Source: Phnomibacter ginsenosidimutans (lineage in GTDB: Bacteria > Bacteroidota > Bacteroidia > Chitinophagales > Chitinophagaceae). From it: DNA of 64,000 nt. Both the position numbers and the translations under genes were made by a program. Under the pieces are notes generated by a model, which had not been told where the DNA came from, made no database searches, and saw nothing but the letters and a program-made list of their open reading frames with translations. Shown in pieces: positions 43,784-44,055 of this stretch (position 1 is its first letter; each line of letters starts with the position of its first letter). The DNA lies in NCBI RefSeq assembly GCF_009740285.1, contig NZ_CP046566.1, positions 1,794,501 to 1,858,500 on the forward strand, given 5' to 3'.

Positions 43784-43840
43784 GGGGGATTAGCTCATCC
43801 CGATAGCTATCGGGAGGCTAGTAAAAAAAGCTTGAATGGA
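43784..43840 (+). other. tRNA-Ala-like relic with a palindrome in the D-loop
   Basis: GGGGGATTAGCTCA is identical to the first 14 bases of the intact tRNA-Ala (43855). At the next position, where the tRNA has GCT, the palindrome TCCCGATAGCTATCGGGA is present, followed by GGCTAG (again matching) and a degenerate part (AAAGCTTGAATGGATG against the tRNA's AGCGCTTGCATGGCATG). The 3' half is lost. It cannot be a functional tRNA. Confidence 0.65.
43798..43815. repeat. 18-bp palindrome, copy 1
   Basis: TCCCGATAGCTATCGGGA is a perfect palindrome. Exact copy at 60119-60136 and a one-mismatch copy at 44024-44041. Confidence 0.85.
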
Positions 43841-43854
43841 TGTTCTTATTAGAA

Positions 43855-43928
43855 GGGGGATTAGCTCAGCTGGCTAGAGCGCTTGCATGGCATGCAAGAG
43901 GTCATCGGTTCGACTCCGTTATCCTCCA
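43855..43928 (+). tRNA. tRNA-Ala (GGC)
   Basis: 74 bases. Acceptor stem GGGGGAT / ATCCTCC pairs (one G-T), D arm with GCTCAGCTGGCTAGAGC, anticodon arm CTTGC-ATGGCAT-GCAAG with anticodon GGC, and T arm ATCGG-TTCGACT-CCGTT. The second pair of the T stem is T-T, an unusual mismatch for a functional tRNA. CCA is only partly present downstream (ACA). A terminator hairpin follows. Confidence 0.88.
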
Positions 43929-43938
43929 CATCAAAAAG

Positions 43939-43965
43939 AAAGGTTCACATTTTGTGAGCCTTTTT
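43939..43965 (+). terminator. Terminator of the tRNA-Ala unit
   Basis: AAAGGTTCACA / TGTGAGCCTTT (one G-T pair) with a three-base loop and a T run. A near-identical hairpin follows the second relic at 44065-44090, so tRNA and terminator were duplicated together. Confidence 0.8.
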
Positions 43966-43979
43966 GTTTGATACAAGTC

Positions 43980-44055
43980 AGCATGCTGTGGCGCCTCGAC
44001 TAAGTCGAGGAGGTCATCGGTTCTCTCGATAGCTATCGGGATCCGTTATCCTCCA
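43980..44055 (+). other. tRNA-Ala-like relic with palindromes in the anticodon-arm and T-loop positions
   Basis: The segment AGGTCATCGGTTC and the end TCCGTTATCCTCCACATCA match the intact tRNA exactly. The anticodon arm CTTGCATGGCATGCAAG (17 bases) is replaced by CCTCGACTAAGTCGAGG (17 bases, an inverted repeat with a 5-bp stem and 7-base loop) at 43994-44010. In the T loop, GAC is replaced by TCTCGATAGCTATCGGGA (44024-44041). The acceptor and D-arm 5' half is diverged. Not a functional tRNA. Confidence 0.65.
44024..44041. repeat. 18-bp palindrome, copy 2 (one mismatch)
   Basis: TCTCGATAGCTATCGGGA, differing by one base from the perfect palindrome at 43798-43815 and 60119-60136, located in the T-loop position of a tRNA-like relic. 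Confidence 0.8.

Follow-up and report, generated by a model that had tools for sequence, protein, structure and literature searches.

How does an intact tRNA gene come to stand between two broken copies of itself, each carrying a palindrome where a loop should be? The question is raised by a stretch of 64,000 nucleotides from Phnomibacter ginsenosidimutans (the window), in which an intact tRNA-Ala(GGC) has one tRNA relic on each side. A sequence-only reading had proposed that a small palindromic repeat family inserts into, or replaces, hairpin arms, and that the relics may still be transcribed. Based on comparison of the window's own genome (G000) with that of a sister species (G081) and with further genomes, the cluster is here understood in another way: it probably comprises an intact tRNA-Ala and two nuclease-less remnants of tRNA-targeting, homing-type GIY-YIG cassettes, the relics having been disabled by hairpins. 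No GIY-YIG open reading frame was found in the window, so that this account of where the cluster came from is drawn from homologous loci.

The tRNA-Ala cluster and its relics

The cluster and the associated elements of the window are composed as follows.

43742-43772, + strand: promoter, TTTG-N19-TANNTTTG (also written TTTG-N19-TATTTTTG)
43784-43821, + strand: left (5') tRNA-Ala relic, made up of tRNA nucleotides 1-14, a D-loop palindrome and GGCTAG
43784-43797, + strand: tRNA nucleotides 1-14 of the left relic, GGGGGATTAGCTCA
43798-43815: 18-nt palindrome TCCCGATAGCTATCGGGA in the D loop of the left relic, replacing the three D-loop nucleotides GCT
43816-43821, + strand: end of the left relic, GGCTAG
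43855-43929, + strand: intact tRNA-Ala(GGC)
43934-43971, + strand: terminator-like hairpin and T-run 3' of the intact tRNA
43978-44056, + strand: right (3') relic of tRNA-Ala, beginning in the D loop and reaching the tRNA 3' end
43978-43993, + strand: D-loop/D-stem part of the right relic
43994-44010: 17-nt hairpin CCTCGACTAAGTCGAGG, exactly replacing the 17-nt anticodon arm
44011-44023, + strand: right relic segment AGGTCATCGGTTC
44024-44041: palindrome TCTCGATAGCTATCGGGA of the right relic, replacing GAC of the T loop
44042-44056, + strand: tRNA 3' end of the right relic
44060-44097, + strand: terminator-like hairpin 3' of the right relic, 87% like the copy at 43934-43971
60119-60136: third palindrome copy, in an intergenic repeat context with no tRNA near

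The anatomy described earlier holds base for base, as regards the intact gene between two relics, the palindrome in the left D loop, the exchange of the right anticodon arm together with the near-copy (TCTCGATAGCTATCGGGA for TCCCGATAGCTATCGGGA) in the T loop, and the further copy at 60119. At the position corresponding to the 17-nt hairpin, the intact gene has the anticodon arm CTTGCATGGCATGCAAG, also of 17 nt. The left relic is followed by decayed sequence up to 43854, and the right relic is without a 5' acceptor strand. Three palindrome cores are present in the window compared to 0.04 expected. There is no sign of a self-splicing group I intron in the anticodon loop, an Rfam search of the window having returned no intron family. 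The DUF805b RNA (RF02914) was matched above gathering score at 45841-45876.

The promoter assigned by the sequence-only reading is likewise in place ahead of the left relic. It matches TTTG-N19-TATTTTTG, which we take to be of the Bacteroidota and not the E. coli type. As it precedes the left relic, transcription of that relic is plausible. Two genes 5' of the cluster show irregularities of their own. The citrate synthase (42354-43678) is split over two frames (ORFs 42354-42875 and 42881-43678) by a frameshift or an assembly indel, and a LytTR-type response regulator (40187-40879) is without its expected C-terminal sequence, suggesting another indel.

Distribution of hairpin-bearing tRNA relics

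The exact 12-nt core of the palindrome occurs 32 times in the window's genome (4.37 Mb), the reversed control not at all, and about 41 palindrome sites were collected there when centre variants were included. Of the 32 cores, five belong to tRNA relics, with four tRNA genes concerned (Ala twice, Phe, Met and Pro); four of the five are at an identical D-loop position. The palindrome is thus not confined to random intergenic sites; its copies outside tRNAs are mostly intergenic. A general preference for hairpin loops, which the earlier reading had raised, was not borne out by the non-tRNA copies of this genome (mean 1.88 compared to 1.48 ± 0.32, not significant).

When relics were recognised from nearly identical tRNA ends of 13 nt no more than 350 nt apart, a hairpin was present in the D or T loop of all seven relics in G000 (six tRNA genes) and in a loop of all four in G081, and plain tandem tRNA duplicates without a hairpin were found in neither genome. 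The tRNA-Phe, tRNA-Met and tRNA-Pro genes of G000 have 5' relics immediately upstream of the intact gene, with the palindrome in the D loop, and tRNA-Arg(CCG) and tRNA-Leu(CAG) have 3' relics in whose T loop a different hairpin, of 27 nt, separates GGTTC from GA. These relics, like the GIY-YIG genes associated with relics, lie beyond what the earlier reading had noticed.

The arrangement extends well beyond the species. A search pattern requiring only that the palindrome come directly after a tRNA-like 5' strand of the D arm was matched in 16 of the family's 296 genomes (control 0), in 14 cases at tRNAs, and a species-wide collection had it in 118 stretches, mostly from Bacteroidota and including cultured strains. 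Where enough sequence was available, 77 of 122 D-loop sites lay directly 5' of an intact tRNA with identical first 13 nt (3.1 expected from shuffling). Tandem 52-nt units precede tRNA-Gly in G266. In G212, tandem 128-nt units homologous to the window's right relic have hairpins both in the anticodon arm and in the T loop; the tRNA-Ala locus of this genome is without a 5' relic, and it is the only other one in the family having the T-loop form with the window's palindrome. A genome of another family (G302) has the matching design with a different palindrome. A full-length tRNA-Lys with the palindrome in its D loop was seen in a tRNA cluster of G234 (L085). Among 116 inserts collected, which are hairpins of 15-60 nt, most are in loops or substitute an arm (mean stem 6.7 compared to 4.0 shuffled), with the share of the D loop biased by the search pattern. 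Their sequences vary between and within genomes (TCCCGAT..ATCGGGA, CCTGCCTGCCGGCAGGCAGG, TCCCGCA..TGCGGGA and GCCCGCCCGG..). As hairpins recur at loop and arm positions in many tRNAs and genomes, the equal length of the anticodon arm and its replacement is no coincidence, in line with the earlier argument.

Could the palindromes have arrived by themselves? REP-like elements might insert into single-stranded loops of tRNA genes and survive in redundant copies, with GIY-YIG genes as mere passengers. The number of genomic copies would fit, as would the presence of the same hairpins at ordinary intergenic sites, one identical 27-nt hairpin common to two G000 relics of different tRNAs, and a nested hairpin-in-hairpin (L086). 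We nevertheless consider this explanation improbable, given that diverse hairpin sequences occupy the same positions, that the non-tRNA copies do not favour loops, that every relic of G000 and G081 is hairpin-bearing, and that the link to GIY-YIG genes is strong. A RAYT/Y1 transposase as mover was rejected: none of the 7 Y1 loci of G000 is flanked by the window's palindrome and the hairpins beside them, where present, differ from it. At three Y1 loci (L143, L144 and L145; G000 near 2194518, 2410283 and 2411140), the flanking hairpins form a REP family of their own (CTTCGGGATTTGCAATCCCGAAG and its variants). What stands of the original proposal is that hairpins occupy relic loops and arms; a single family moving on its own is unsupported, because the hairpins are diverse and the events concern partial tRNA copies tied to GIY-YIG genes or their remnants.

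Small GIY-YIG nuclease genes

Some relic-tRNA pairs enclose an open reading frame of about 80-100 codons with a GIY-YIG domain. At these related loci, as distinct from the window, the proteins match Pfam PF01541 (E 5e-15 to 6e-11) and their alignments contain the conserved Y, Y, R, H and E catalytic residues; no NCBIfam model was matched above its cut-off. In a survey of 61 genomes, one per genus, 64 distinct small loci were found, and 41 have a tRNA within 500 nt, a proximity that arithmetic from tRNA density would predict for about 1%. The tRNA is always on the same strand (41/41). About a third have no tRNA or other known RNA close by, and an Rfam search around 20 such tRNA-less loci gave no match. 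Alignment of the tRNA to its surroundings revealed hairpin relics adjoining the small GIY-YIG genes, with the hairpin in the D loop, D arm, anticodon loop, anticodon arm, variable region or T loop. One locus is from a Candidatus Gracilibacteria MAG (L171, 2669-3179), where tRNA-Met(CAT) is accompanied by three relics and a GIY-YIG gene, the anticodon arm being exchanged for TCCCGATTAAAATCGGGA; cross-phylum transfer or contig misbinning may be responsible. A phage or plasmid vehicle was rejected: no phage match was obtained, and the plasmid database PLSDB gave four distant matches, mostly on chromosome-sized records.

Within the window's genome, the nearest tRNA-adjacent GIY-YIG gene is at tRNA-Leu(CAG). 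There, the tRNA is followed by three identical 347-nt tandem units, each consisting of terminator, GIY-YIG gene and T-loop-hairpin relic, and G081 has one such unit. With dN at 0.010 and dS at 0.20, purifying selection acts on this gene.

The hairpin position is inherited together with the nuclease. On a tree of 40 nucleases it requires 8 changes compared to 19.1 for shuffled positions (a value this low in 0 of 200 shuffles), and the anticodon-arm group spans Ala, Met, Val, Arg and Lys tRNAs. This clustering is no proof of target specificity, since the parts of a cassette are co-inherited and the position labels were assigned by hand. A D-type nuclease is present in 8 of 14 genomes with D-loop relics compared to 10 of 282 others (p=8e-8, the genomes not being fully independent).

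These data bear on a second explanation, namely that the hairpins maintain the element, either by reducing recombination between relic and tRNA or by keeping the relic RNA from competing in folding or processing. It is consistent with hairpins cutting the relic-tRNA homology into short stretches, with relics retaining the acceptor strand of the intact tRNA, and with long, full-length relics bearing two or three hairpins (L310 and L326). Such a role alone, however, would not predict that the hairpin position tracks nuclease lineage across different tRNAs, and the tandem units were amplified nevertheless; we hold it to be unlikely.

Occupied and empty sites

Between G000 and the sister species, occupied and empty alleles can be distinguished at the tRNA genes for Pro, Asn, Arg and Met; Leu differs in copy number. 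At tRNA-Pro, G081 is empty and the relic unit of G000 is bounded by direct repeats of the leader and tRNA start. At tRNA-Asn the situation is reversed, with G000 empty and G081 occupied. The tRNA-Met of G081 shows relic, GIY-YIG gene, second promoter and intact tRNA in succession, and in G000 no more than a C-terminal remnant of the GIY-YIG gene lies upstream of the tRNA. At tRNA-Arg(CCG), the terminator after the G081 tRNA corresponds to that after the G000 relic, and the intact G000 gene has another terminator; from this swap it follows that the unit supplied tRNA 3' end and terminator and that the relic retains the old end. The same swap is seen at tRNA-Leu(CAG), the element restoring one tRNA end in both cases.

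Two types of unit emerge. The 5' type has the order promoter, tRNA 5' relic with loop hairpin, GIY-YIG gene and intact tRNA, in one case with a second promoter before the tRNA. The 3' type has the order intact tRNA, new terminator, GIY-YIG gene, 3' relic with loop or arm hairpin and old terminator. Units are 40-380 nt long, contain nothing beyond a GIY-YIG ORF, and occur in tandem, sometimes as identical copies. Shorter, gene-less units accompany tRNAs of these same kinds, one of each type being present in the window. At tRNA-Ala of G022, from the same family, there are two copies of a 3' form that has the nuclease gene and, in place of the anticodon arm, a hairpin; considering this homologue and that in G212, the right relic of the window is best taken for a version of this form without the nuclease, and the left relic for a D-loop form without it. 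In G081, the right tRNA-Ala relic (L105) turns into unrelated hairpin sequence directly after the T-loop palindrome, as if recombined there.

It is also conceivable that the relics are functional RNAs, acting as leader or trailer regulators of tRNA processing or as decoys for tRNA-targeting nucleases. The promoter at 43742-43772 is the sole one seen 5' of both left relic and intact tRNA, with no second promoter visible between them, the left relic folds as a single long hairpin (z -3.3), and relic segments are conserved between G000 and G081 and, for Asn, also in G212. Against this stand the differences in presence between sister species at the same tRNA, the free decay of the 3' side of relics, and the diversity of hairpins and their positions, which make a functional RNA very unlikely. 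Chance, random decay or an assembly artefact, to which the two apparently frameshifted genes of the window might point, can be dismissed on copy number, controls, a sister genome 95% identical over the locus, and the same anatomy in independent assemblies (cultured Flavobacterium soyae and Aequorivita lipolytica, and independent MAGs).

Proposed mechanism

Homing by a free-standing GIY-YIG enzyme appears to fit these observations best. A full cassette would consist of the endonuclease gene, about 80-100 codons in length, and one end of a tRNA gene. The nuclease would cut an unoccupied tRNA gene, and repair from an occupied copy would insert the cassette, whose own tRNA end would preserve gene function while the displaced tRNA half would stay behind as the relic. 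The hairpin would disable the relic, most likely by destroying the nuclease target in that loop, and might also make it recombine less with the intact tRNA gene. Once the nuclease gene is lost, relics as in the window would be left.

Target destruction is suggested by a known enzyme. SegB of phages T4 and T6 is a free-standing GIY-YIG homing endonuclease in a tRNA cluster (PMC13096335; PMC2988022); in T6 it cuts within tRNA genes, prefers the motif RAWTSGAAC and drives tandem amplification of tRNA and nuclease (PMC13096335). By our own reading, the reverse complement GTTCSAWTY would equal the conserved T-loop sequence; in relics with a T-loop hairpin, this sequence is interrupted after GTTC and before GA. 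The cassettes described here resemble SegB in having a small GIY-YIG gene among tRNA genes, but they are chromosomal, not phage-borne, and encode proteins of only about 80-100 amino acids. For SegB, neither a split-and-restore tRNA end, nor hairpin-bearing tRNA relics, nor nuclease-less derivatives are reported.

The mechanism has to accommodate that intact tRNAs beside cassettes keep normal loops, those for Pro and Met being identical to orthologues that are empty or have a remnant only. Unless flanks matter, one would therefore expect the nuclease to go on cutting a target that has been restored within its own cell. Self-protection would have to depend on the flanks or on infrequent cutting of the donor, for which there are reports from other free-standing enzymes.

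Discussion

Analogies exist with several mobile or repetitive elements. Islands and phages integrating at tRNA genes by a tyrosine recombinase restore one tRNA end and leave a truncated tRNA copy. The cassettes likewise restore one end, yet their units of 40-380 nt are without integrase or cargo and their relics have loop hairpins. The 178-bp repeats of E. coli tyrT (rtT RNA) are tandem units after a tRNA, each beginning with a 3' tRNA fragment, and in this they resemble the units found here; they are not known to have loop hairpins or a nuclease gene. Rickettsia palindromic elements are palindromic units inside genes, including RNA genes, of 100-150 nt, species-limited and mostly inside ORFs, and to our knowledge involve no partial tRNA duplication. 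The REP/RAYT system comprises short palindromic repeats scattered in intergenic DNA (PMC6006769, PMC3733652). The window's palindrome is similarly short and dispersed between genes but is without the GTAG/CGTC tag, and placement in tRNA loops is not described for REP/RAYT (PMC6006769, PMC3733652).

In the open literature searched, we found no description of the palindrome sequence or of GIY-YIG cassettes at Bacteroidota tRNAs, an absence that is no proof. The cassettes are apparently an undescribed kind of tiny mobile cassette, widespread in Bacteroidota. With due reserve, we put forward the possibility of a new class, in which minimal GIY-YIG cassettes split and rebuild tRNA genes, mark the relic with a captured hairpin in the loop recognised by the nuclease, and spawn nuclease-less hairpin-tRNA arrays, in Bacteroidota and once in the Gracilibacteria MAG. 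Homing-type elements that leave relics marked in this way, and arrays without the nuclease, at essential tRNA genes might merit being classed separately.

Lastly, the proposal has implications for how these genomes are read. Annotation pipelines may miscall some relics as real tRNAs, as happened with ARAGORN for a hairpin-bearing tRNA-Pro relic (L319/L334 in G052). Each nuclease lineage is predicted to target that tRNA arm which has become a hairpin in its own relic. If the proposed scenario is true, it would account for the many broken copies of tRNA genes seen in genomes of Bacteroidota, numerous orphan GIY-YIG genes of about 90 amino acids would gain a function, and homing would extend from phage tRNA clusters, as with SegB, to essential chromosomal tRNA genes by way of split-and-restore.
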